The notes beneath the pieces were generated by a model, which saw only the letters and a list, made by a program, of their open reading frames with translations, was not told the DNA's origin and did not search any database. Positions 2 through 20,510 of a DNA stretch of 20,510 nt are shown here, in pieces (positions within the stretch are counted from its first letter, which is position 1; every line of letters begins with the position of its first letter). Position numbers and translations under genes: made by a program. The stretch is taken from IMG/VR virus record IMGVR_UViG_3300010158_000388, positions 1 to 20,510 of that record, one strand, 5' to 3'. This DNA is from a virus.

Positions 2-34
2 ATCTTCATTGAAAAACTTCATAAAAATATTTAG
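2..34 (+). CDS. possible C-terminal end of an upstream plus-strand gene (partial)
   Basis: One forward frame is open from the left edge and ends at a TAG at 32-34, reading ...FIEKLHKNI. It lies just before a plus-strand gene with its own late-type promoter box, so it may be the tail of another plus-strand gene. Only ten codons are visible, so chance cannot be excluded and no function can be given. Confidence 0.3.
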   Translation: MFIEKLHKNI

Positions 35-39
35 GCAAA

Positions 40-47
40 ACTAAATA
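40..47 (+). promoter_or_regulatory. late-promoter-like box ACTAAATA, 5 bases before ATG
   Basis: ACTAAATA ends exactly 5 bases before the ATG at 53. It differs from the T4 late promoter core TATAAATA in its first two bases. The same box with the same 5-base gap occurs before the other two plus-strand genes and the homing endonuclease gene. If it works as in T4, transcription would start at or next to the ATG. Confidence 0.55.
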
Positions 48-52
48 ATAAT

Positions 53-499
53 ATGAACAATATATTTGGTAAAGTATTTTATAATCTACTCGAGCAAGAT
101 GTAGCCGAAAATCTTCCCCCTACAGGCGAGGAGACTACAGGTGAAGAAATGTCTGATCAAGATGCTATGCAGGCAAGTGGAACAAACCCTGCTGACATGG
201 AAATAAATACACCTAGTCAAAAAGTAATGCAGGCAACTTCGGATGCTCAAAAGCATATGATCGGGGAACTTAAACAGTGGATCGAAGAGCTTAGCCAGTT
301 TTCTGAATATTTAAATGGAATGGGGCCTGATTCAATACAATCAAAATTACGGGCTTCAATAGCAGATACTATTTTTGATAAGATTAAAGTTGCAGAAAAT
401 AAGAAAATTGCTCGCGTTGCTATGGAGTTACGCTCTTTAAATGAAATGTTAAAGGGTTACCTCTCAACTGCATCTGATTCAAAATATAAATTCGTTTAA
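53..499 (+). CDS. unknown protein, probable late gene
   Basis: A 148-residue acidic protein that I do not recognise. The N-terminus is a short hydrophobic segment (IFGKVFYNLLE) followed by an acidic, low-complexity stretch at about residues 18-50. The C-terminal half is predicted helical with charged heptad-like spacing. Residues 12-14 (LLE) match the [L/I]xE cleavage rule of the T4 prohead protease gp21, so the first 14 residues could be a capsid-targeting sequence; this is inference. It is one of only three plus-strand genes among replication genes, and a late-promoter-like box ends 5 bases before its ATG, which supports this start. There is no Shine-Dalgarno sequence. Its 3' end overlaps the convergent primase gene by 4 bases. 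It could be a minor virion or scaffold protein, but no family supports that. Confidence 0.75.
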   Translation: MNNIFGKVFYNLLEQDVAENLPPTGEETTGEEMSDQDAMQASGTNPADMEINTPSQKVMQATSDAQKHMIGELKQWIEELSQFSEYLNGMGPDSIQSKLRASIADTIFDKIKVAENKKIARVAMELRSLNEMLKGYLSTASDSKYKFV

Positions 500-4105: not shown

Positions 4106-4960
4106 TTATAGGTCTCTTAGAAGGTCTTGAATGATGTCATCAGTAATTTCATTTTCATCCTCAATAACAGGCGCAGCTTTTACTTCAGTCTGCTTTTCAG
4201 GAACTTTAGTATTAGTAGCTTTTACTGCTGGGCTAGGGCTCGGAGTTTCATTTACACCTCTAAGATGGAAGTGCTCGTTAAACAATGCTCGAATTTCATC
4301 TGCAGTCTTTACCGTCATTACAGATTCAAGATTATGCACACCTTTATAGATCTCTTCAATCTTTTGATTAGATAATTTCAAGTCTGATGCAGAGGCAAAT
4401 CGGCTACTTACGTACGTAGGATATTCACCTTGAGTCTCGCACTTAATCTTTAAGCTGCATCCTTCTGCTGAAAGATCAAATACTCGATGACCAAACTCTT
4501 CAACATCTTCACCATTTACAGCTGCTTCGATAATCTTATGGAGCTGTCGACCATAGCGAAGGATTTTTACCTTACCTTTATTCTCTGGATTCGTTGGATC
4601 ATCAATTACATACACATTAACCAGCCATTTTTCAGCTCGTTTAACGCTTTCAACCTTCGACTTCTCATCATCAGTTCCGACTCGAAGTAACTTAAATCGC
4701 TCTTCTGCAATTGGATCCCGTTCATTAAACGTTTGCAAAGACAAAGCTGATACATATTGACCCGTAGCAAATGAAGTCCAACCATGAACAAAGTAATGAA
4801 AAAAGGTCTTTACTGGATCTAAGCTATTAGGCAGAATCCGTACAGTATAGGTATTACCGGGCTCAAGCTTAAGAACTTCTTTATAAGTCGTAGCACCACC
4901 ACCACTATCGTCTTTGTTAAGGGCATCGCGAATTGACTGTAACATTGTTTTTGTAATCAT
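4106..4960 (-). CDS. single-stranded DNA-binding protein, T4 gp32 type
   Basis: A 284-residue protein (T4 gp32 has 301). It would coat ssDNA during replication and recombination and interact with UvsX, the helicase loader and the polymerase. Shared features are an N-terminal cooperativity region, an OB-fold core with VRILPNSLDP, FVHGW and the strongly T4-like stretch DDPTNPENKGKVKILRYG, and an acidic C-terminal tail ending DDIIQDLLRDL, much like T4's DDLLNDL. T4 gp32 binds zinc through one histidine and three cysteines; the matching segment here (about residues 60-95) has no cysteine, so the zinc site appears lost. GGAAA lies 17 bases before the ATG and TATAATA lies 5 bases before it. The gene precedes the linker protein and clamp on the same strand. 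Confidence 0.9.
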   Translation of the reverse strand: MITKTMLQSIRDALNKDDSGGGATTYKEVLKLEPGNTYTVRILPNSLDPVKTFFHYFVHGWTSFATGQYVSALSLQTFNERDPIAEERFKLLRVGTDDEKSKVESVKRAEKWLVNVYVIDDPTNPENKGKVKILRYGRQLHKIIEAAVNGEDVEEFGHRVFDLSAEGCSLKIKCETQGEYPTYVSSRFASASDLKLSNQKIEEIYKGVHNLESVMTVKTADEIRALFNEHFHLRGVNETPSPSPAVKATNTKVPEKQTEVKAAPVIEDENEITDDIIQDLLRDL

Positions 4961-4977
4961 ATTAGTATTATAAGCGG

Positions 4978-4982
4978 TTTCC
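4978..4982 (-). promoter_or_regulatory. GGAAA box with TATAATA upstream of gp32
   Basis: The minus strand reads AACGGAAACCGCTTATAATA and then CTAAT before the ATG at 4960. GGAAA is 17 bases from the start, and a good -10-like TATAAT lies between them. This is the clearest example of the recurrent element. Confidence 0.5.
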
Positions 4983-5627: not shown

Positions 5628-5642
5628 TATTCCAAATAATAT

Positions 5643-5915
5643 CTATTTTCCTTCTTTTGAATTAAAAAATTTAGATATATACTTACTCTTACTTAAGGTC
5701 GAATCATACGTTAAAAATATACGTACTAATTCAAAATCTGTATCAATACATAGATTAGTCTTAAAAATATATTTAAATTGATCGCTTTGTAAAGTATGCA
5801 AAAAAACATTAGGTAAATTTAATTTTTTTCGGCAAAGAATACAAATTAACGAACAATAACTTAAAAAGTTATGATCTTGTTCCTTTTCTTCTAATGTTTG
5901 GTAATCTGCAATCAT
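5643..5915 (-). CDS. small unknown protein in the position of gp33 (90 residues)
   Basis: A 90-residue, cysteine-containing, probably helical protein (SYCSLICILCRKKL at about 19-32). In T4 the order is 33-59-32; this gene occupies the gene 33 place, two genes before gp32. T4 gp33 links the clamp to RNA polymerase for late transcription and ends in a hydrophobic clamp-binding peptide. No such peptide is obvious here, so the link is only positional. Its ATG overlaps the TGA of the DHH phosphoesterase gene (ATGA), showing translational coupling. Confidence 0.6.
   Translation of the reverse strand: MIADYQTLEEKEQDHNFLSYCSLICILCRKKLNLPNVFLHTLQSDQFKYIFKTNLCIDTDFELVRIFLTYDSTLSKSKYISKFFNSKEGK
5647..5651 (-). 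promoter_or_regulatory. GGAAA box upstream of the gp59-position gene
   Basis: AGAAGGAAAATAG on the minus strand places GGAAA 19 bases before the ATG at 5627. It overlaps the final codons of the 90-residue gene, and a TATTAT stretch lies between box and start. Confidence 0.35.
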
Positions 5916-6849: not shown

Positions 6850-7251
6850 TCAATCTTGTAGTAAATTTAAAGTATTCAGACTATCTTCTGCTTCAGTAGT
6901 TAATGAGTTTAATTCCTCATCTTCTATAATAGTTAGTGTAGAATAATCAATTGAGAATGCATTATTGCCAAAATTAGGACCAAATCGATTTTTCATAATA
7001 CCCATTCGAATAATACCATTTTCCGAGTCTTCATCTTGCTGATATACACCTGCAATAAAATCAGCTGTTGCTCCCATACCATAACTTTCACTTAATGACT
7101 TTAATGATGGCTCCCCTACATCGTACTCGCTATTATGTGTAAGGATATCATTTGCAAAAAATAAATTATCACCTGACACACAAATATCTAGAGTTTCCAT
7201 AACTCCAACTTCTTCAATACATACAATTTCATCTTCAATTATGTTATTCAT
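6850..7251 (-). CDS. replicative DNA helicase gp41, C-terminal part, with split-intein C-half
   Basis: This gene encodes a 40-residue intein C-half followed by 93 residues of helicase. The intein part has block F (about ETLDICVSGDNLFFAN) and block G (DILTHN), with catalytic His-Asn followed by Ser as the +1 residue. The extein (SEYDVGEP...) continues a DnaB/gp41 C-terminus, including SYGMGATADFIAGVYQ and an IRMGIMKNRFGPNFG strand typical of the RecA-like core end. I chose the ATG at 7251 because it overlaps the stop of the endonuclease gene by 8 bases and gives a normal C-half length; an ATG 8 codons upstream also exists. The protein is useful only after trans-splicing with the N-terminal half, giving about 441 residues (T4 gp41 has 475). 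Confidence 0.9.
   Translation of the reverse strand: MNNIIEDEIVCIEEVGVMETLDICVSGDNLFFANDILTHNSEYDVGEPSLKSLSESYGMGATADFIAGVYQQDEDSENGIIRMGIMKNRFGPNFGNNAFSIDYSTLTIIEDEELNSLTTEAEDSLNTLNLLQD
7132..7251 (-). other. split intein C-half (IntC), gp41-8 type
   Basis: Forty residues end in LTHN before Ser. The segment VGVMETLDI...LFFANDILTHN is very close to the published gp41-8 IntC as I recall it (VGVEETIDI...LFFANGILTHN). The junction codon pair is AAT (7132-7134) and AGC (7129-7131). Confidence 0.88.
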
Positions 7252-8512
7252 ATAAAAATTTCTTACATTTATCAATTTCTCGTTGCTTGTTCTCCTTGTA
7301 ATCTTTTTCCCACACTATTAAGACACTAAAACCTCTTGATTCAGCGCATTTAATTTTCTTATTGTCATATTCCCATATCTTGGTACATGTTAAGTCTTTT
7401 TTCCAAGGATTAGGTTTATCATTTTCAGTGAAAATAGCAGGATTACCATGGAATATATCCCCATTAAACTCAATTATTTTCTTTGTTGTTAAATCTACCA
7501 AATCATAAAAATATATGATATCAGATTTCCGACTAATAAAATATTCACCGACTTTAGTAGCATACCGTAATTCGTGTGTATTATCGTCAATATACTCAAA
7601 CAATTCCTGTGATATTCTCGAGAAGCCGGATCTTGTTGTTGTGTACTTTATATATTCCTGAGTGCCTATATCTATACCATGTTTTTCAATATACCAATCA
7701 AGTGTATTACGATACCTCTGATAATCGCTTTGCATATTATATTTTATATTGCCTTCGACTGGTCCATACCTTTCAATATTATATTCCAAGGATTTATGGT
7801 CTTTATCTTTTTTACATATACTAATTCCTTGATTACCATATTTTTTAATGTATCCCTGTCTCGAAGAACCTAAATGTAATTTATCGATTCTGCTATTAAA
7901 TATCTCATTTCCTCGTTCATCACCATATTTATTAATAAAATACAGTAGTGATTTATTTATAGTGTCCTTTTCACGAATCTTAAAATATCTTATCGTTCCC
8001 TCTACCTCACCATATAACTCAATTTGCCTTTCTAGAGTTTTATTTCGTTTATTCTTCTCGCAAAATTTATTATACTTTACAATACCTATATCTTTACCGT
8101 GTCTCTCTATAAACTTCTCCACACTTCCACCAGATCGCTTACACCTGTTTCTATACTTCTTCGCGCCTTCATCAACCCCATATTTATTAATATATTTATC
8201 CAACCATGGTACATTACCTTTTTTATTTTTTTCTTTATATTTTACTGTACCTTCTAATTTACCATATAAGAAAATATAATTATCAATAGAATGCGATTTG
8301 CCATTAATTGTTTTATATTTTTTAAATCTGTCAAATAAATCTGTAAATCCTAACTTTAATGATAATGCAATGAACCGATTCTCTGCTGCGCTAAAACATT
8401 TACCGTTTTCTTTTTCTATTTCGTTAATTTGCGGATAAAACTCAGCATATAATAAACAATTCTCCCCAAGTACTTTTTGCACTTCTTTTCGTTCCAAAAA
8501 TAACTTCATCAT
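7244..8512 (-). CDS. free-standing homing endonuclease with YGxxxG repeats and Vsr/EDxHD-like nuclease domain
   Basis: A 422-residue protein encoded between the two intein halves. Residues about 65-300 hold roughly seven or eight imperfect repeats of 25-45 residues around YG-x3-G-x3-Y (YGKLEGTVKY, YGVDEGAKKY, YGEVEGTIRY, YGPVEGNIKY), likely DNA-binding modules. The last 80 residues carry a nuclease domain resembling very-short-patch repair and EDxHD homing endonucleases: IIEFNGDIFHGNP (E348, D352, H355) and, after a GFSVLIVWEKDY strand, W401/E402. I chose the ATG at 8512 because an ACTAAATA box ends 5 bases before it and it follows the N-half stop; an in-frame extension upstream overlaps intein coding. 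A second ATG follows immediately. It probably cuts intein-less helicase genes so that the insertion spreads. Confidence 0.85.
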   Translation of the reverse strand: MMKLFLERKEVQKVLGENCLLYAEFYPQINEIEKENGKCFSAAENRFIALSLKLGFTDLFDRFKKYKTINGKSHSIDNYIFLYGKLEGTVKYKEKNKKGNVPWLDKYINKYGVDEGAKKYRNRCKRSGGSVEKFIERHGKDIGIVKYNKFCEKNKRNKTLERQIELYGEVEGTIRYFKIREKDTINKSLLYFINKYGDERGNEIFNSRIDKLHLGSSRQGYIKKYGNQGISICKKDKDHKSLEYNIERYGPVEGNIKYNMQSDYQRYRNTLDWYIEKHGIDIGTQEYIKYTTTRSGFSRISQELFEYIDDNTHELRYATKVGEYFISRKSDIIYFYDLVDLTTKKIIEFNGDIFHGNPAIFTENDKPNPWKKDLTCTKIWEYDNKKIKCAESRGFSVLIVWEKDYKENKQREIDKCKKFLYE

Positions 8513-8516
8513 ACTA

Positions 8517-9869
8517 TTATTTAGTACTTTTGATGTTATTATCTGCAACTCTTGCTGCATTGCAGATAGAATATAATTTATCACCAACAGTCAAGCCTGA
8601 ATTTATATTTTTACACCCATCTGTTGTAGGAAATATATGTTGTTTAGAGCAAATAACTGTTTTACCGCTTCGAAGAGTAATCCGGTAACATTTTTGTGTC
8701 TCGGGTGGATATATATGTTTAACAATAACAGGCGTGTTGCCTCTAATAATATCACCAACCTTTATATCCTTCAATTTAACTTGTTTGCCACTATCAAGTG
8801 TAATATTAGTATTAATATCTAAGCAGCGATTAATTTGGGTTGCTGTAATAATAGGGCAACTAAATACATATGTCAGTGCTCTTACCTGTTCAGATAAATA
8901 TTTGACCCTTTCATATGAATTACTCCCAACCGGTGAGTTTAATAAATTTAAGTAATCTAATACAATTGCATCAATATTAATACCTTTACTCTTTAGCTTC
9001 TTAATAAATGCAGATAATTGATTTGGCGTAATTAAACTTGGTGGAAATTCTTTAATAAAAATACGGCCCTTCGGATTTTTATTTTTAATGTCAGTAATTG
9101 TTTCTTTTAATAATCTGCAATTGGTTCTTAGCTCTCTAATTGGAATTTTAGATACTGAAGAGCAAATACGCCTTGCATACATCATCTCTGACATTTCAAG
9201 GGTAATTAAAAGAACAGTCTTACCAGTTTCAGCAATATTTTTTGCAATATTACCCAAGACAATACTTTTTCCAATATTTGTCTGTCCTGCAAAAATATAT
9301 AACCCCCGGCCATTCTGCAAAAAGCCACCATCTAGTTTATCATCAAGCCATTTCCATTTACTCGCAATAACGGGCTCTGCATTATTGAGATCTGCAATAA
9401 CATTATCAATATTACTGTAAATCTCAATCCCTGAGTCTGAGATTAAACTAATATTGCAATTCTTCTCGAATTTATCAAGAATTAATGATGTATCGAATTC
9501 CCCTGTGTGAATACTATCAGCAACCTCTAGAATAGTATTATACACAGCACGCTCTTTTAAGAAACGTTCTGTGTTTTCAATTAATTCTTCTTTATTGAAG
9601 GTCTTATCAAGATTTTGTACTATATTAAGAATAAATTTAAAGGCACTAATTTCATCCTTAGTTGTAATGTAAGTTTTTAGCTCTGTTAAGGTCGGTAAAG
9701 CGCTTCGCTTACTAAAGAAGTCCTTAATAATATTAAAAATTACTTTGTTCTCACTATACTTAAGGTAATCTACATTGGTTACATCTACGATCGTTGTAAA
9801 GTACTCTTCATCTGTTATGCACTTATACATAAAGATTTTTTCGAAGTGATCCAAATCAATTTTTGACAT
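8517..9869 (-). CDS. replicative DNA helicase gp41, N-terminal part, with split-intein N-half
   Basis: Residues 1-348 are a DnaB/T4 gp41-type hexameric 5'-3' helicase: a helical N-terminal domain, then a RecA-like core with Walker A GQTNIGKS (195-202), catalytic glutamate in ITLEMS (E225), Walker B AIVLDYLNLL (D305) and the ITATQINR motif at 341-348. The reading then passes into an intein N-half beginning CLDINTNITL (C349) and ends after 102 intein residues. The helicase is completed by trans-splicing to the product of the gene at 6850-7251, joining QINR to SEYDVG. GGAAA lies 16 bases before the ATG. Without splicing the N-part lacks the core's final strands and should not work. Confidence 0.93.
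   Translation of the reverse strand: MSKIDLDHFEKIFMYKCITDEEYFTTIVDVTNVDYLKYSENKVIFNIIKDFFSKRSALPTLTELKTYITTKDEISAFKFILNIVQNLDKTFNKEELIENTERFLKERAVYNTILEVADSIHTGEFDTSLILDKFEKNCNISLISDSGIEIYSNIDNVIADLNNAEPVIASKWKWLDDKLDGGFLQNGRGLYIFAGQTNIGKSIVLGNIAKNIAETGKTVLLITLEMSEMMYARRICSSVSKIPIRELRTNCRLLKETITDIKNKNPKGRIFIKEFPPSLITPNQLSAFIKKLKSKGINIDAIVLDYLNLLNSPVGSNSYERVKYLSEQVRALTYVFSCPIITATQINRCLDINTNITLDSGKQVKLKDIKVGDIIRGNTPVIVKHIYPPETQKCYRITLRSGKTVICSKQHIFPTTDGCKNINSGLTVGDKLYSICNAARVADNNIKSTK
8518..8525 (-). promoter_or_regulatory. late-promoter-like box ACTAAATA inside the end of IntN, before the endonuclease
   Basis: The minus strand reads GTACTAAATA, then ATAGT, then ATGATG. The box encodes the last residues of the intein N-half (S, T, K) and most of its TAA stop, and it ends exactly 5 bases before the endonuclease ATG. 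Box and gap match the three plus-strand genes. Confidence 0.6.
8520..8825 (-). other. split intein N-half (IntN), gp41-8 type
   Basis: This part is 102 residues long and begins with catalytic Cys. Block A is CLDINTNITL. Block B is GKTVICSKQHIFPT, with the usual TxxH as SKQH. The DGCKNINSGLTVGDKL segment is very close to the gp41-8 IntN (DGLKTINSGLKVGDFL) as I recall it. Insertion after Asn-Arg of the TQINR helicase motif is the site I recall for gp41-8. Confidence 0.88.
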
Positions 9870-10600: not shown

Positions 10601-11269
10601 TTATATTGTAAAGTATGGAGTTGTATTTGCAAATTTGCCAATAGCTTTGACATTTTTAGTATTTAAATTAATTTGATAAATATTACCTTCAATTAATTCG
10701 GTCCAATTACCTGATATTGAATTAATTGAGCAAAAGTCACCGGTTTTTGTATTGCAGAATAAAGTACTTCCCTGCCTTGCAATATATAAGCTGTTACTCT
10801 GCTCATTAAAAATCCAAACAGCAAACGTCCCTTCTAATAATGATAAAACACTACTAATATTTTCAATTTCAGTAACTGTTTGATTGTCTGTACTAAATTG
10901 ATTTAATAGTGATGGAATTACTGCACTATCAACTGGGCTTTTATTCCATTTGCAATATTTTTCAGTTAGTTCTTTTGAGTTTGTAATAACACCATTATGG
11001 CCTACAATCCAATCACCTGATCTAAAGGGATGACTCGTTAATGCAAGGTACTCTCTTTGTGCGCTTGTAGGTGCTTGATTATGGCCTAACGCAAATTTAG
11101 TATTTTTGCTCAAATTAATTTCTTCTGGGTGATCTTTTTGTCTAATAATTTTAAGCGAATTTTTATTAGATATAGATAACAAGCTAAAAGCATATTCACC
11201 TCTAAAGATTGTTGCTGAATGTAATATTTCGAGCATTGATTGATTTGCAGACCCATAAATTGAACACAT
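10601..11269 (-). CDS. class II glutamine amidotransferase (stand-alone)
   Basis: A 222-residue protein that should release ammonia from glutamine. The nucleophile Cys2 follows the initiator Met (MCSIYG). Other Ntn-hydrolase motifs resemble the GlmS/PurF/AsnB glutaminase domain: GHNQAPT (62-68), HPF (80-82), VGHNGVITN (89-97, N92/G93 oxyanion hole) and DSAVI (114-118). No synthase domain follows, so ammonia must pass to a separate partner. The QueC-like protein 1.1 kb away is the best candidate, because known Gat-QueC enzymes fuse these two domains; this is inference. GGAAA lies 21 bases before the ATG, and the gene is divergent from the plus-strand gene at 11329. The glycosyltransferase starts 4 bases after its stop. 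Confidence 0.85.
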   Translation of the reverse strand: MCSIYGSANQSMLEILHSATIFRGEYAFSLLSISNKNSLKIIRQKDHPEEINLSKNTKFALGHNQAPTSAQREYLALTSHPFRSGDWIVGHNGVITNSKELTEKYCKWNKSPVDSAVIPSLLNQFSTDNQTVTEIENISSVLSLLEGTFAVWIFNEQSNSLYIARQGSTLFCNTKTGDFCSINSISGNWTELIEGNIYQINLNTKNVKAIGKFANTTPYFTI

Positions 11270-11290
11270 AATTACTAATATTGTATATGT

Positions 11291-11295
11291 TTTCC
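11291..11295 (-). promoter_or_regulatory. GGAAA box upstream of amidotransferase
   Basis: AACGGAAAAC on the minus strand places GGAAA 21 bases before the ATG at 11269, in the 59-base divergent gap shared with the plus-strand late-type promoter. Confidence 0.4.
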
Positions 11296-11315
11296 GTTAA
11301 AAAACTATATTTTTT

Positions 11316-11323
11316 TATAAATA
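11316..11323 (+). promoter_or_regulatory. perfect T4-type late promoter TATAAATA
   Basis: TATAAATA is the exact T4 late promoter core. It ends 5 bases before the ATG at 11329. In T4 the core spans about -13 to -6, which would place the transcription start at that ATG; a second in-frame ATG lies at 11341. Confidence 0.7.
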
Positions 11324-11328
11324 CTTGT

Positions 11329-14424: not shown

Positions 14425-14441
14425 ACGTTTATGATATTATC

Positions 14442-14446
14442 TTTCC
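14442..14446 (-). promoter_or_regulatory. GGAAA box upstream of uvsX
   Basis: AATAAGGAAAGATAATATC on the minus strand places GGAAA 17 bases before the ATG at 14424, directly after a terminator hairpin, so an independent promoter is needed here. This makes the box a good promoter candidate. Confidence 0.5.
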
Positions 14447-14866: not shown

Positions 14867-14884
14867 CTTGTATATAATAATATG

Positions 14885-14889
14885 TTTCC
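14885..14889 (-). promoter_or_regulatory. GGAAA box upstream of the 115-residue gene
   Basis: AAAGGAAACATATTATTATA on the minus strand places GGAAA 18 bases before the ATG at 14866, in the 38-base gap after the polymerase C-fragment. Confidence 0.45.
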
Positions 14890-14904: not shown

Positions 14905-16008
14905 TTAAATTCCAAACAGATCAAACAAATCTGTCTGCACAGCTTCAGATGGCTTTCTAGGTACCCAGTTTACAGCTTCGTAAAATCGTTCTACACAAGA
15001 ATAAACAATTTTATTGAACATCTTCTCTTTGTCTGGTATAAAGATACTTTTTAGTTCTTCAGGAAATTTATACTTAAATGCAATTGCATCAATACCATAC
15101 TTGTTAGGTTTCTCTACGTAAATATACTTGATCTTATCACCATCTGCAATTGATTCGTACTTAGTATCTAGATTTAATTTTTTGAGAATCAAATTATAAA
15201 AGTAAGCTGCTTTAACATGACATGGCATCCGTAATGCAGTTCTAAACTCACTACATTTACTAGCATATTTATCATAATTTCTAATACTAGAAGTAAAAGC
15301 AGTATCTTTAATATCTAGCCTTTTAAATGTATTATATGCATCCATTAAGATTTTATTCGTACTACTCTGAGAGTAAGTAGTAAGCATATTCTCAATAATA
15401 CTCTTTACATATGGTTTAATTGCTCTTGGCATTGTAGTTCTTACTACTTCTACACCAGTATATTTCCACTTATCGCAATTAATCCCTTCATCGTCCAATA
15501 CATGCAAAACATATCGCTTTTTCTCGAGAAATATTCCTGTATCAGCAAGAGACTCGCGCTTAAATAAAAATCGACTATCTTTTGAATTTAATGAACTTTG
15601 CGCCCATTTTGAAATCCCATTATTAATATATTTCTCAATTTTATCTACAACAGAATACGTTTCTTTAGTAATTTTGCCGTTCTCAGAAAAATTTAATTCA
15701 GGTATCTTACTCAAACTAATATATAAACTATCGGTATCCCCGTAAGTCCTTACTTCTGAAGCAGTTATATTCAAATTATAATTTGTATTAATAAATTCCG
15801 CACTTAATTCTGCTGCTTGCTTGATAACAGCCTGACCAGTCAAAGTAATTGATGCTGCAATATCATCATCACCAAAAGAAGCATGCTTGTTTCCGAAGAA
15901 ACCATACACGCTATTAATAAAAACCTTAATACAATGCTGCTTTGTATTAAGCCGCTCAATTTTATCCTTCAGCTCTTTCTGACGAGCTAACAACTGTTCT
16001 TTATTCAT
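14905..16008 (-). CDS. family B DNA polymerase gp43, C-terminal fragment (fingers second helix, palm motif C, thumb)
   Basis: A 367-residue protein holding the second half of the polymerase. It begins with a fingers-like helix (KELKDKIERL), then motif B KVFINSVYGFFGN (28-40) and motif C YGDTDS (89-94, catalytic aspartates), a KKRYVLHV strand and the thumb. It ends in QTDLFDLFGI, a clamp-binding peptide like the C-terminus of T4 gp43. Motif A and the exonuclease are on the separate fragment at 17717-20510, so the two proteins must assemble. There is no intein sequence at this break. Its ATG overlaps the TGA of the TilS-like gene (ATGA), so it is translationally coupled to that gene rather than to its other half. 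TATAATA lies 4 bases before the ATG. Confidence 0.92.
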   Translation of the reverse strand: MNKEQLLARQKELKDKIERLNTKQHCIKVFINSVYGFFGNKHASFGDDDIAASITLTGQAVIKQAAELSAEFINTNYNLNITASEVRTYGDTDSLYISLSKIPELNFSENGKITKETYSVVDKIEKYINNGISKWAQSSLNSKDSRFLFKRESLADTGIFLEKKRYVLHVLDDEGINCDKWKYTGVEVVRTTMPRAIKPYVKSIIENMLTTYSQSSTNKILMDAYNTFKRLDIKDTAFTSSIRNYDKYASKCSEFRTALRMPCHVKAAYFYNLILKKLNLDTKYESIADGDKIKYIYVEKPNKYGIDAIAFKYKFPEELKSIFIPDKEKMFNKIVYSCVERFYEAVNWVPRKPSEAVQTDLFDLFGI

Positions 16009-16664
16009 AATTTATTATAATTTAATTCCTTGATATCTTTTGTGATTAACGAAATACAATGTTTCTTTAGATTTACTTTCTGTTGTTGCATTGATGGAAT
16101 AATTTCTGTTCTAATCCAGTTACGCCTCGATCCTTTAATTTGATTATTAGTTTCATCCTCAGTCACAAAGTCTTTTAAGTGCCCATTCTTCCACCTATTT
16201 ACAAAATTAATAAAATCTTTCTTTTCTGTTAATAAAAAGGGATGAGCAATCTTAAATGTATTGAAGTCTGATACTAATTTAATTGGTCTGTAATTTGCAT
16301 GACCCCTAAAACAATTTAAAATATAACTCTCAACATAATCATCCAGATGATGACCAGTAATTACAATACTATTGTGTGCAATTTCGCCAAAAAATTTTAA
16401 TCGAGCATCTCTACAGCTCTTTTCTGATTTTAAATTCTTTCCATAACCAATATGGTGTTTAATATTTAAATCTTTTACTCTTTTTTCCATTAAATCGTTC
16501 TGTTTACGCAACTTGTGATTAAAATGTAGTGCAGTAACATTATATCCAAGTTTTTGCAAGTAAAAGAAAGCTGCAAGGCTGTCAACTCCCATAGACAGAG
16601 CAACAAAGATCTGTTGTTCTTTACTTTTGAGGCTAATTAAAGAATCTAAATTATTTTTAATCAC
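16005..16664 (-). CDS. TilS-like PP-loop ATPase (tRNA(Ile)-lysidine synthase N-domain type)
   Basis: A 219-residue N-type ATP pyrophosphatase. Motifs are PP-loop LSMGVDS (23-29; the second position is Met where SGG is usual), ALHFNHKLR (45-53), CRDARLKFF (84-92), TGHHLDDYVES (103-113) and RRNWIRTEIIPSM near 180-192, which together point to TilS rather than QueC or GuaA. TilS adds lysine to C34 of tRNA-Ile(CAU). Cellular TilS is about twice as long; this one has only the catalytic domain, so tRNA specificity is open. The start is GTG at 16664 with GGAAA 17 bases before it. Its stop overlaps the polymerase C-fragment start. I see no tRNA gene in the window. Confidence 0.8.
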   Translation of the reverse strand: MIKNNLDSLISLKSKEQQIFVALSMGVDSLAAFFYLQKLGYNVTALHFNHKLRKQNDLMEKRVKDLNIKHHIGYGKNLKSEKSCRDARLKFFGEIAHNSIVITGHHLDDYVESYILNCFRGHANYRPIKLVSDFNTFKIAHPFLLTEKKDFINFVNRWKNGHLKDFVTEDETNNQIKGSRRNWIRTEIIPSMQQQKVNLKKHCISLITKDIKELNYNKL

Positions 16665-16681
16665 ATTTATATTTTAATTTG

Positions 16682-16686
16682 TTTCC
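16682..16686 (-). promoter_or_regulatory. GGAAA box upstream of TilS-like and polymerase C-fragment genes
   Basis: GCAGGAAACAAATTAAAATA on the minus strand places GGAAA 17 bases before the GTG at 16664, inside the 40-base divergent gap, only 5 bases from the oppositely oriented late-type box. Confidence 0.45.
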
Positions 16687-16691
16687 TGCTG

Positions 16692-16699
16692 TCTAAATA
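16692..16699 (+). promoter_or_regulatory. late-promoter-like box TCTAAATA, 5 bases before ATG
   Basis: TCTAAATA ends exactly 5 bases before the ATG at 16705. It differs from T4 TATAAATA only at the second base, and it shares the fixed gap seen at 53 and 11329. Confidence 0.55.
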
Positions 16700-16704
16700 A
16701 TTGA

Positions 16705-17733
16705 ATGATTAGTTTTCTACGTTATTTAACACTTTTGAGGGAGGGCGGGTGGTCTAATGCGATTACTCAAGGTACTATAATACACCCACCATTGATTCGT
16801 AAAATATTAATTGAAATAAAAAAAGTTGTAGCTGATTTTAATCACTGGACAAAAAATAATTATGGGCAATTTCCAATTGAGGTAGACTCCCCACTTGGTA
16901 GTTCTGCATATTATGAGCAAGATGATGAATCTACTGTATACGGTGATATAGATATATTAATAATTACACCCGATGGTAATGAGCGCACTCCAGGACGGTC
17001 ACGATCTTATTGGAACAAATTATTTCAAAGTTTTATTAAAGAAACAAAACCCGAAAATATTCATAGAGATAGTAAAGAAGGTCATCCAATTTTTATCACA
17101 GAGAACAATGAGTGCGTCCAAGTTGATTTACTTTTTTGCACTGAGAAAAATAAAGCCTGGTATAAAGCAAGATTAACCCCTGAGCGAGGATTAAAGGGGG
17201 CCGCTTACGGTAAAATATTTACAGCACTTGGTGACACATTAACTGCCAGCATACAGGATAATGGAGTACAAGTAAAAATATCTTATGGCAAACGAATGAA
17301 TTATGCAAATACTAAATCTAATTACAAAATAGAAGTTATTAGTACAAATATTAGCACTTTTGCATATGATATTTTAATGGCAGAAATAGGTAGTTCTATA
17401 CCCGCAAATGAAATAAAAGTTGACCCGCTGTTGGATCAAAATAGAGGTGTAGATGTTAATAATATTACTGCTCTCAAATTACTTAAAGCTGTAAAGGGTC
17501 TAGGTAAAAGTTTTGAACAAAATAAACTCTTCGGAAAAGGTCATCTTGAGCATATAAAGAGTTTACAAAATTATTATTCCACCTTTATTTCAAAATATGC
17601 CGAGTTAATGGATAGAAATATTGGTTCCTCTAAACGGGATAAAGCAATTGATAAACAAAAGGCAATTAATGATGTAGAGAAAGTTAGAGAAGGTAAAGAT
17701 AGAGTTATTAAGCAGTTTAATTCAATTCCATAG
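16705..17733 (+). CDS. nucleotidyltransferase (Pol beta superfamily), probable late gene
   Basis: A 342-residue protein of the DNA polymerase beta-like nucleotidyltransferase superfamily. It has the GSSAYY helix start (65-70), the metal pair in YGDIDILI (D81/D83) and a third acidic strand CVQVDLLF (D141). This pattern is shared by poly(A) polymerases, CCA-adding enzymes and OAS/CD-NTase-like enzymes; I cannot choose a substrate. The N-terminus MISFLRYLTLLREGG is hydrophobic and contains LRE before Gly, fitting the T4 gp21 rule ([L/I]xE, then a small residue) for removable capsid-targeting peptides. With its late-type promoter and plus-strand position between two polymerase fragments, it may be packaged in the head; this is inference. 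Its 3' end overlaps the convergent polymerase gene by 17 bases. Confidence 0.85.
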   Translation: MISFLRYLTLLREGGWSNAITQGTIIHPPLIRKILIEIKKVVADFNHWTKNNYGQFPIEVDSPLGSSAYYEQDDESTVYGDIDILIITPDGNERTPGRSRSYWNKLFQSFIKETKPENIHRDSKEGHPIFITENNECVQVDLLFCTEKNKAWYKARLTPERGLKGAAYGKIFTALGDTLTASIQDNGVQVKISYGKRMNYANTKSNYKIEVISTNISTFAYDILMAEIGSSIPANEIKVDPLLDQNRGVDVNNITALKLLKAVKGLGKSFEQNKLFGKGHLEHIKSLQNYYSTFISKYAELMDRNIGSSKRDKAIDKQKAINDVEKVREGKDRVIKQFNSIP

Positions 17734-20510
17734 CTTTAAGCTTTTCAATAATTTCCACTTCTTCATTCTTACATTTTTTAAGCTCAGCTTGAATCTTTTT
17801 ACGTTCAGTATAATAAAAATCTACTAAGTCAGGCATAATACCTTTAGTTTTTTGCGAGAACAAAATCTTTGCTTTTGATACTGCAATATCTTCTGTTTTA
17901 AGATACTTAACAAACTTATCTCTAGTCAATTTAAATATCTGACCATTTACATGTCTAACAGTAATGTGATTATCGTCACTCTCAATAATTTTACCCACTT
18001 TAGTCTCAGGAGACATATTTAAACTAATCATGACGTTCGGATATAGAGAGTTTGCATCAAAACTTACAATATTTTTCTGAAATCCTTTTTGAGGCTCTGC
18101 AACAAATGCCCCTGGGTTCTTACCTTCTACGTCACTTCTAATAAAAGTTGAAATATGTAAGTTGTTTTTTCTTGCTCTAATAGCTGATGCACCTGTAATT
18201 ACAGATAATGTACCCATTGCACCCTCAAACGTAGTCAGTCCCATGTATGCTAACATTCTCAGCAAAGATATATACTGCAACTTAATTTCTAGCTTAACTA
18301 AAAGATTTACATCTTGAATATTATAATCAACAAATGTATTCCAATCAGTTTCCATTAACTGATACAAATCTTTATCGCCAATATCAACTTTTCGTTCATT
18401 TAATTCAGTCTCTCCAATAAAATCTAAACGATATGATTCTTGATTTTTAAATCTAAATCGTTTGTAAATATCTAGGTAATCCACGCACGAAATACCTTCA
18501 ATATACCACTGAATTTGCGGTCTACCAAAGCTATTCATAAAAGTTCTTGAATATACTCTATCAACCGGTGATAAATCATTAACTGCACTAGCACCTAATA
18601 TATTCCTGATACGATTTACAATATATGGAATATCGAAAAACGTACAATTATGGGTCAATATACCATTACATACAAATAAATGTGTATCTGTTTCAATATC
18701 ACACATTTCAACTTTATTACCTGTTGAAGTAACAGGCTTCAAGCGTACAATGTATTCATTCTGCGTATCATTATTTACGTACTTAATATCCTTACTTATT
18801 GTCTGTAATTTAGTAAAATATTTAAGCTCATCTATTTTTTGCTTTCTGGGTTCTTGAAACATTTTACAAGATATTTCTCGCAAAAATAACCGGTTTGTCT
18901 CATAATTATATATATGTAGAATGGTCTTACTTGACCGGACGCACGATATAACATTATTCCATAATAGCAATTCCTGCAAATCATTTAAAAAATTATATTG
19001 AACACAATCAAAATTGCATAGATCAACACCTGTATCAATGCAGCCATCACCATCAATCATACCCGCATATAGACTAGTAAATTGACAATAGCTTAGCTGT
19101 GACAGCAACTCTATATTTGGTTGCTTCTTGAGTTGATTATTGTATATTAATGTTAATAGTAGACCTATTTTATTTGTAAGACCGAACTGCTTATAGTAAC
19201 AGCCATCTTTTGCCTTTAGCGGGCGACTTACTGCTCTCTTATCAATTACGTCTGTATGCAACCTATGTATTTCTGTATATTGTGATATTACATTTTCATA
19301 CTTATTACATAACCGTACACTCAACTGTGGCTTAATTACATCGACTTTTTTTATTTTATCCAACGTCCCATCTGTAAATAAAAATCCGATAAATTGCAGT
19401 AATTCAGGTGAGATCTCTTCATCTAAATTTATTTGAGTTGCATGTTTATTTTGCGTAAATAGCAGAGTCTGCGTGGTTTCAAGAAACGAAACTATATCTT
19501 GCCGGTCAATATAATCCTTTAAAAATGACCATCTCCAATTAGATCTACCTTTCCAAAATTCGGCACCCCACCAATAATCAGCTCTAATTAATTGCGTTAG
19601 TTGAATATTATTTTTTAATTTGTCGCGTATTCTGCAATCTGTTATATAAAAATCAAATAGTAAGGTACTATTCAAAAATGTATCTAGGTTTTTAGTAATT
19701 AATTGTCTATATGTTAGATTATTATTTTTATTTGGAGTTAAGCACACCTTAGAATATACGTCATTATTTGTTTGTAGCTCTATTATGTCACTGACACTTA
19801 GTTCCTGCAGCGGTAATTTCGAGAATGTATTTTTATTTTTATACGTATGTTTTGGTTTCACTATCACCATAAATCTGTGATCAATTGATGATAATACATT
19901 AAAACCGAACTCATTCTCAATACAATATTCATCTTTTAAACCTGTGTCCATATATCTATTTATACAATTACCGTATAATTTAAGCGGAGTATTCTCAGTT
20001 TTTTTCGATATATTACCTATGCTTGTAATCCTATCTTCAAGCCATATGTGCTGCTCTTTATTAATACAATTCCAGCCACTTAAGATATCAGGAGGATTCT
20101 TTCGAAGAAACTCAACAAAATCCGTCAGCAAGTCAATCTCAGTAGCACAGTTAAAGTACTTAATATTTTTCTGCTTAGGTTTGTATTCCCCAGTACCCCA
20201 AACATAATATACCTCTTCAATACTATCAAAGACGTTGATCAAGTTAATCGGATATGCTGCATTTTCAGGACTAGGAAATCCCATTCCAGTCGGCGCAACA
20301 GCTTCAATATCGAAGAAATAAATCTTTAATGGAAATTTAACAAAGTCTTCTGTATCATTGTAATCACCATACATATCGATTAGCGATTGCTGCACAGGAT
20401 TGAAATTTTCGAATAATCTCTTCGTCCCAGTCTCTTTAATCCACTTTAATTTATCGAAATATGTATTAAATGACTTTTTACGAATCTTAGTATTAAAGAT
20501 ACTTAAGTCA
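17717..20510 (-). CDS. family B DNA polymerase gp43, N-terminal fragment with intein (partial, runs off right edge)
   Basis: This fragment has the 3'-5' exonuclease and part of the palm. Positions below are counted from the GTG at 20395. It shows Exo I FFDIEA (D29/E31), Exo II ILSGWN joined after splicing to CTFFDIPY, Exo III VDYNIQDV (Y691/D695) and palm motif A SFDANSLYP (D780). After motif A comes one fingers helix (YYTERKKIQAEL), and it ends KAMELN before motif B. An intein occupies residues 110-583. The frame stays open for 38 codons upstream of the GTG to the window edge, reading DLSIFNTKIRKKSF...NFNP, which looks like a gp43 N-terminal domain; the true start is therefore outside. The rest of the polymerase is at 14905-16008, behind the TilS-like and nucleotidyltransferase genes. 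Confidence 0.93.
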   Translation of the reverse strand, partial: DLSIFNTKIRKKSFNTYFDKLKWIKETGTKRLFENFNPVQQSLIDMYGDYNDTEDFVKFPLKIYFFDIEAVAPTGMGFPSPENAAYPINLINVFDSIEEVYYVWGTGEYKPKQKNIKYFNCATEIDLLTDFVEFLRKNPPDILSGWNCINKEQHIWLEDRITSIGNISKKTENTPLKLYGNCINRYMDTGLKDEYCIENEFGFNVLSSIDHRFMVIVKPKHTYKNKNTFSKLPLQELSVSDIIELQTNNDVYSKVCLTPNKNNNLTYRQLITKNLDTFLNSTLLFDFYITDCRIRDKLKNNIQLTQLIRADYWWGAEFWKGRSNWRWSFLKDYIDRQDIVSFLETTQTLLFTQNKHATQINLDEEISPELLQFIGFLFTDGTLDKIKKVDVIKPQLSVRLCNKYENVISQYTEIHRLHTDVIDKRAVSRPLKAKDGCYYKQFGLTNKIGLLLTLIYNNQLKKQPNIELLSQLSYCQFTSLYAGMIDGDGCIDTGVDLCNFDCVQYNFLNDLQELLLWNNVISCVRSSKTILHIYNYETNRLFLREISCKMFQEPRKQKIDELKYFTKLQTISKDIKYVNNDTQNEYIVRLKPVTSTGNKVEMCDIETDTHLFVCNGILTHNCTFFDIPYIVNRIRNILGASAVNDLSPVDRVYSRTFMNSFGRPQIQWYIEGISCVDYLDIYKRFRFKNQESYRLDFIGETELNERKVDIGDKDLYQLMETDWNTFVDYNIQDVNLLVKLEIKLQYISLLRMLAYMGLTTFEGAMGTLSVITGASAIRARKNNLHISTFIRSDVEGKNPGAFVAEPQKGFQKNIVSFDANSLYPNVMISLNMSPETKVGKIIESDDNHITVRHVNGQIFKLTRDKFVKYLKTEDIAVSKAKILFSQKTKGIMPDLVDFYYTERKKIQAELKKCKNEEVEIIEKLKAMELN
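18647..20068 (-). other. contiguous intein with LAGLIDADG homing endonuclease, in the Exo II motif
   Basis: A 474-residue insertion starts with Cys (CINKEQHIWLEDRI) after SGWN and ends LFVCNGILTHN before +1 Cys. Block B-like SSIDHRF and block G LTHN are visible. Two LAGLIDADG-type helices, FIGFLFTDGTL and LYAGMIDGDGCI, indicate an endonuclease domain that looks intact. Precise removal restores GWNCTFFDIPY, matching T4 gp43 GWNIEGFDVPY. Confidence 0.9.

Follow-up and report, generated by a model that had tools for sequence, protein, structure and literature searches.

The DNA analyzed here (the window) comprises the whole of an IMG/VR record of 20,510 bases from a T4-type phage, with genes for gp32 (ATG at 4960, identified by PF08804), DNA polymerase B, and clamp-like, UvsX-like, and DnaB-like proteins. 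The polymerase gene lies in two parts (14905-20509) and is split by two genes that diverge from a short gap: a leftward TilS-like PP-loop gene (16005-16664, minus strand) with a GTG start at 16664, and a rightward gene for a putative nucleotidyltransferase (16705-17733, plus strand) with an ATG at 16705, each start codon also being the predicted RNA start. The TilS-like label, originally given from the letters alone, was upheld by PF01171 (E 9.9e-23, or 1e-22 when rounded). The rightward protein has no match in Pfam, PHROG, or PDB or among named phages, and its AlphaFold2 single-sequence model (mean pLDDT 36.5) is unusable; in the loci compared and in close-relative scans, neither gene has a relative beyond its own lineage. 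The DnaB-like helicase gene (6850-9869, minus strand) is split at intein-like ends, with a separate open reading frame (7244-8587) in between; in G001, a 98% relative, the helicase is uninterrupted (441 amino acids) and window positions 7125-8825 are missing. Split gp41 inteins are known in marine phages, and the split seen here resembles these. An intein-like insert with LAGLIDADG similarity within the N-part of the polymerase (18649-20065, minus strand) is also absent in G001. A tRNA scan gave no tRNA and one doubtful tmRNA, reported by ARAGORN in the relative G007 (L054 12252-12661, minus strand), which has an unusually long tag and is probably false. Two scans of genome contigs for a host, made with the polymerase and capsid alignments, returned no relative.

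The gap between GTG 16664 and ATG 16705 is 40 nt long and identical in sequence in G001 (here a 97-98% relative). The sequence-only reading had placed in it two opposed regulatory boxes, one for each flanking gene and 5 nt apart, and had seen the same layout at 11270-11328. This description holds: the minus strand carries GGAAA at 16682-16686, the plus strand carries TCTAAATA at 16692-16699, and the two are separated by the 5 nt at 16687-16691; the second gap repeats the layout with GGAAAA (minus strand, 11290-11295) and TATAAATA (plus strand, 11316-11323). Position counts against shuffles, given below, identify the boxes, the GGAAAA element included, as positional signals of two kinds, each serving the gene that had been assigned to it. 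On the leftward side, GGAAA is part of a GGAANN element (16681-16686), falls at -22 to -18 if the GTG is taken as +1, and is followed by a -10 box, TAAAAT (16671-16676, one mismatch to TATAAT), 6 nt before the start codon, the whole reading GGAANN-N4-TAAAAT-N6-GTG. On the rightward side, the late box includes CTAAATA from 16693. The -10 box of the second gap, TACAAT (11280-11285, minus strand), stands 10 nt before ATG 11269, with a predicted leader of about 4 nt, and the opposed late box precedes ATG 11329. In both gaps the late box ends exactly 5 nt before the ATG.

Both layouts occur elsewhere in the window. CTAAATA-N5-ATG is found at 20-34 (minus strand), starting a leftward gene that the window edge truncates, and at 41-55 (plus strand), starting gene 53-499, and these two form a late/late divergent gap of 30 nt; a third copy (8510-8524, minus strand) precedes an in-frame internal ATG (8512) of the open reading frame at 7244-8587, the insert that splits gp41. 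Also on the minus strand, CTAAATA stands 8 nt before ATG 1771 (1780-1786) and ATG 2376 (2385-2391), and TTAAATA 6 nt before ATG 10653 (10660-10666). Further predicted GGAA promoters on the minus strand are at 1552-1567 (TAAAAT, 6 nt before GTG 1545), 4967-4982 (TATAAT, 6 nt before the gp32 ATG at 4960), 5636-5651 (TATTAT, 8 nt before ATG 5627), 14431-14446 (TATCAT, 6 nt before ATG 14424 of the UvsX-like gene), 14874-14889 (TATTAT, 7 nt before ATG 14866, with TTGA at spacer 16 too), and 16014-16029 (TATAAT, within the 3' end of the TilS-like gene and 5 nt before ATG 16008 of the polymerase C-part). Two of the seven [AC]TAAATA-N5-ATG hits, those at 7918 and 19949, sit inside genes and may be due to chance. 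The latter (ATAAATA-N5-ATG, 19949-19963, minus strand) lies inside the polymerase intein with its ATG in frame, so that a late transcript might give rise to a shortened intein protein, or the match may be fortuitous.

The significance of the boxes comes from their position, the bare words being unremarkable. GGAAA occurs 44 times in the window against 48.2 expected, and TATAAATA with up to one mismatch 146 times against 118.7 expected, a number reached by 2 of 100 shuffles. When anchored to a start codon, GGAA-N5..7-TATAAT-N5..8-start (up to one mismatch in TATAAT) is found 8 times, against a mean of 0.90 and a maximum of 3 in 300 dinucleotide shuffles, and [AC]TAAATA-N5-ATG 7 times, against a mean of 0.65 and a maximum of 4; in a separate run, none of 100 shuffles reached 7 (maximum 3). 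Across the window and G001, 9/53 gene starts have GGAA[AT] ending 17 nt upstream, and 6/53 have TATAAT ending 6 nt upstream. Permuting the word within this lineage leaves little of the signal, as GGAA plus a -10 box stands before 13 of 52 clusters, AAGG before one, and three other permutations before none, while AGGA, which scores 10, is the same box read with a one-base shift. In the window lineage taken by itself, the late box is only mildly enriched over permuted words (TAAATA at gap 5-7 before 7/52 gene starts, against 5 for the best permuted words and a mean of 2.43), and its gap is looser here, values from 5 to 16 occurring. As the late class is weakly resolved in so small a lineage, the case for it rests on the relatives. 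Shine-Dalgarno-like words precede 5 of 41 genes in G001, against 0 at the control position. Before counting, starts with fewer than 80 nt of upstream sequence, genes below 50 amino acids, coding scores below 15, and near-duplicate starts were removed, and the per-gene window counts do not include gene 11329, which the gene caller mis-starts (at 11281 or 11287), or gene 53, which it drops because too little sequence lies upstream.

In related uncultured T4-like phages, a leaderless-type layout without ordinary ribosome-binding sites appears to recur at hundreds of gene starts. A polymerase scan gave 40 loci; with an alignment, at least 479 polymerase-bearing relatives were found, and a scan with a capsid alignment found at least 581, 80 being kept in each case. 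Named phages are distant (at most 31.7% identity for the polymerase and 33.8% for the capsid protein among the matches listed), and in an unrooted tree of 43 rows, which holds no T4 row because the T4 stretch used lacks the polymerase, the 40 clade rows split from Mosig, C48C1, and P-RSM6 with support of 100/100. TAAATA stands exactly 5 nt before the start of 34/187 genes in G007, 25/149 in G002, and 12/90 in G003, against about 0.1-0.4 per position farther upstream. The wider sets comprise 118 polymerase-region loci (1076 starts in 421 clusters) and 80 capsid-region loci (508 starts in 183 clusters), and partly overlap with G002 and G007. In these, TAAATA at gap 5/6 precedes 50 of the 421 polymerase-region clusters (shuffled mean 3.37, maximum 11) and 51 of the 183 capsid-region clusters (shuffled mean 1.51, maximum 6), and at least one such box is present in 65/76 polymerase loci having at least 8 starts and in 63/65 capsid loci having at least 4. 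TATAAT at gap 6/7 precedes 24/421 polymerase-region clusters (shuffled mean 2.90, maximum 9) and is not significant in the capsid region (4/183; mean 1.11, maximum 6). Late-box gaps of 5, 6, and 7 number 47, 18, and 4 in G007, G002, and G003 together and 74, 26, and 12 in the other loci, and the -10 boxes peak at gap 6, one base beyond the late-box peak (11/17, 11/31, and 24/70). A box is not recognized at 1162 of 1969 starts; many of these are operon-internal, and some promoters may have been missed.

In neither set do Shine-Dalgarno words at -16 to -4 exceed the control (15 versus 22 of 421 clusters; 9 versus 9 of 183). The same gene caller, applied to about 50 kb of each of five named T4-type phages, finds such words before 30/55 genes in T4, 34/55 in Mosig, 21/56 in C48C1, 15/67 in P-RSM6, and 29/81 in Cr30, against controls of 2, 0, 7, 5, and 7. 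Start-abutting TAAATA (gap 5-6) was not seen in these five, save for one case in Mosig, and in the T4 region TAAATA sits at gaps 26-28 (8 cases). Counts of TAAATA-N5-ATG over whole records, with the reversed control in parentheses, are 40 (2) for G007 and 30 (5) for G002, and 10 (5) for T4, 11 (3) for Mosig, 1 (1) for C48C1, 5 (2) for P-RSM6, and 0 (1) for Cr30.

Three promoter classes seem to be used in the clade, TTGA-N16-TATAAT, GGAA-N6-TATAAT, and TAAATA. Among the 75 of 846 clusters with TATAAT at gap 4-8, TTGA lies at spacers 15, 16, and 17 in 5, 21, and 6, and GGAANN at spacer 4 in 14; this fixed GGAANN-N4-TATAAT spacing couples GGAA to the -10 box in the manner of a -35 box. TTGA also stands 16 nt before TAAATA in 9/169 clusters of the relatives, which suggests that some late boxes also serve as -10 boxes of early promoters. 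The box type tracks gene content in G007, where PHROG tests covered 20 of the 33 late-class and 10 of the 12 -10-class genes of at least 150 amino acids (54 and 24 genes in all). Matches to tail, head, neck, or lysis families were found for 12 of the 20 late-class proteins, to an unknown family for one, and to nothing for seven, with 0/20 matching DNA metabolism. Five of the 10 -10-class proteins are primase, exonuclease, SSB, DnaB, and UvsX, and the other five are QueE, a nucleotide-metabolism family, a tail hub, an unknown family, and one without a match; the tail hub counts against a clean gene-class split. Genes without either box are largely operon-internal in G007, overlapping a co-directional upstream gene in 45/84 cases against 0/33 for late-box genes. 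A gp55-like homologue is present in 9 of 11 records, the near-identical G001 included, and is not found in the 20.5-kb window fragment itself.

From the box positions and spacings, the gene-class split, the lack of Shine-Dalgarno sites, and the gp55 homologue in relatives, we infer start sites, timing, a GGAA-reading factor, leaderless translation, and perhaps steric exclusion of opposed polymerases. It is likely that each box is a promoter that sets its RNA start at, or 1-2 nt from, the start codon and so yields leaderless mRNAs. CTAAATA or TATAAATA on the rightward side would be a T4-type late box read by the phage gp55-like sigma, and GGAANN-N4-TATAAT on the leftward side would be a -10 promoter in which GGAA stands in for the -35 box and is probably read early or mid infection with the help of a putative factor. 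The resulting leaderless mRNAs would do without a Shine-Dalgarno site, and about 40 bp could hold both divergent promoters because neither would need room for a leader. The geometry of the boxes is consistent with this. In sigma70 promoters, the -10 box lies at -12 to -7, which predicts a gap of 6 if the RNA starts on the start codon. With the RNA start as +1, the T4 late box occupies positions -13 to -6 (PMC1524935), and a gap of 5 would accordingly place +1 on the A of the ATG. Two box types of different known geometry therefore both point to the start codon, and this one-base offset (late box 5, -10 box 6) is the best sequence evidence for leaderless RNA. We thus regard the boxes as probable real, opposed promoters of two classes, with the leaderless, Shine-Dalgarno-free register as the finding of interest.

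The sequence-only reading went further and suggested that such gaps could be mutually exclusive early/late switches. While its two kinds of box, the genes they serve, and the layout shared by both gaps stand, exclusive switching is unsupported, as late/late pairs are as tight and strand organization can explain the pairing of early with late. A dedicated switch, in which leftward early or middle and rightward late transcription alternate because the promoters exclude each other, is unlikely. The predicted start sites are 41 bp apart, at which distance the footprint of RNA polymerase makes overlap expected, and steric exclusion is plausible. Among 61 nonredundant divergent pairs of relatives (of 189, with gaps of -20 to 300; counts that leave out the window and G001), 47 have gaps of 10-60 nt, and the types are early/late in 20, none/late in 17, late/late in 9, none/early in 8, none/none in 5, and GGAA/late in 2. 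Of the 31 pairs with a recognized box on both sides, 22 join unlike classes and none is early/early, as a switch would have it; however, 9 are late/late, with gaps from 30 to 67 nt. Unlike pairs are also explained by the strand bias of the gene classes, since in G007 39/54 late-class genes but 6/24 -10-class genes lie on the plus strand (Fisher p = 1.5e-4), which by itself favors early/late pairs. In addition, a change of sigma alone can give temporal control, and at the glutamine amidotransferase gap (window 11270-11328) an opposed late start within 120 nt is found upstream of only 13 of 43 homologues (at 50 nt in L084 and L088). Compact gaps would follow from promoters that need no leader.

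It could also be argued that the boxes are translation-initiation signals and not promoters, as Bacteroidota-type initiation uses an A/T-rich, Shine-Dalgarno-independent start context, and the boxes do lie at a fixed distance from start codons that lack Shine-Dalgarno sites. We consider this quite improbable, as the boxes are present at a minority of genes, overlap with the upstream gene in G007 is seen at 0/33 genes with a late box and 45/84 without a box, and box type tracks gene class. Moreover, TTGA and GGAA keep a fixed spacing from TATAAT that would be of no use to a ribosome, and the late box is the T4-type late box in phages with a gp55 homologue. A long-spaced Shine-Dalgarno role for GGAAA at the leftward genes is highly unlikely: AGGAA resembles such a word and keeps a constant distance from the start, but at 17-18 nt upstream it is much farther away than is usual for such sites, on which ground the idea was set aside; it is equally fixed to TATAAT; and relatives have TTGA-N16 in its place at orthologous genes. 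That A+T-rich intergenic DNA yields such boxes by chance, as bare word counts near expectation might suggest, has next to no probability and is contradicted by start-anchored counts above every shuffle in both the window and the relatives.

The promoter reading extends to a difference between lineages, as GGAA is mainly an element of the window lineage. At orthologues of the GGAA-type genes of the window, relatives carry TTGA-N16-TATAAT (loci not dereplicated), in 62/94 loci for UvsX (GGAA in 1), 17/37 for gp32 (GGAA in 1), and 15/55 for glutamine amidotransferase (GGAA in 0). GGAA promoters are found at 7/22 starts in the window and 10/40 in G001, and at none of 78 starts in the sister loci L084, L085, L088, and L110. 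Elsewhere the element occurs at low frequency (two cases in L127; 47 plus 11 mixed of 1969 starts), and outside the window lineage it precedes 10/280 and 13/603 clusters, against up to 2 and 5 for permuted words, the AGGA shift apart. It is possible, and we propose it tentatively, that this abundant uncultured clade dropped both leaders and Shine-Dalgarno sites from each of its three temporal classes, with promoter position alone setting both RNA and translation start, and that in the window lineage the replication genes were switched from TTGA-N16-TATAAT to a new middle promoter, GGAA-N6-TATAAT, whose reading factor differs from MotA, with the leaderless register kept.

Comparison with known systems gives additional insight. 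T4 middle promoters (MotA box plus TATAAT) are alike in that an upstream element replaces the -35 box, TATAAT is kept, and replication genes are served. The MotA box lies near -30, whereas GGAA in the clade lies at about -22 to -19, and a search for a MotA box (TGCTTtA) near -30 found instead GGAA, as GGAANN, at spacing 4 before TATAAT. The MotA/AsiA system itself was considered and rejected, as both families are absent from all 8 of the clade records searched, which may be incomplete, and present in T4. The sigma70 early promoters of T4-like phages share TTGA and TATAAT at spacer 16 with the relatives, but the -10 box of the clade stands about 6 nt before the start codon. T4-type late promoters, read with the gp55 sigma, have TATAAATA in T4, NATAAATA in S-PM2, and CTAAATA in Aeh1, a box sequence in common with the window, and further likeness is seen in the gp55 homologue of the relatives and the structural genes downstream. 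Unlike in the T4 region tested, where the box lies mostly 26-28 nt upstream and a Shine-Dalgarno site is present, the clade box ends 5 nt before the start with no such site. For Aeh1, the late consensus published is CTAAATA (PMC1524935). Leaderless phage transcription has precedent, as most middle and late transcripts of the lytic Thermus phage phiYS40 are reported to be leaderless (PMC3594737), and a remark citing an E. coli study holds that phage transcripts are often leaderless (PMC5312081). The layout described here differs in being built on T4-type late boxes and is deduced from DNA sequence. To our knowledge, phiYS40 and its host are unrelated to the window phage and its host. Searches of open-access PMC literature on leaderless T4-like or lytic phages gave no leaderless T4-like phage among the papers listed.

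The major capsid gene of the relatives is an exception to the start-abutting layout, with such a late box in 0 of 81 leaders and a Shine-Dalgarno-like word in 46 of them. A stretch about 100 nt upstream is conserved in L081-L083 and L163-L242 (e.g., L082:1094-1194) and contains two hairpins, within which compensatory changes occur among 65 unique leaders (e.g., UA in 47 and CG in 18; GC in 47 and AU in 18). Rfam gave no match at E up to 1 for the stretch in L081-L083, and a further closing stem seen by eye is not predicted by RNAalifold. It is possible that this leader represents a new structured RNA.

T4, the textbook example of temporally ordered phage transcription, uses leaders and Shine-Dalgarno sites. 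If the leaderless reading is true, the same sigma-switch program would be shown to work with leaderless translation in T4 relatives, and start sites and temporal classes would become readable from sequence alone in the polymerase- and capsid-bearing stretches of one collection (at least 479 and 581, respectively). It would also hint that the hosts have ribosomes able to initiate efficiently on leaderless RNA, and the replacement of TTGA by GGAA at orthologous genes would offer a natural experiment in promoter rewiring.
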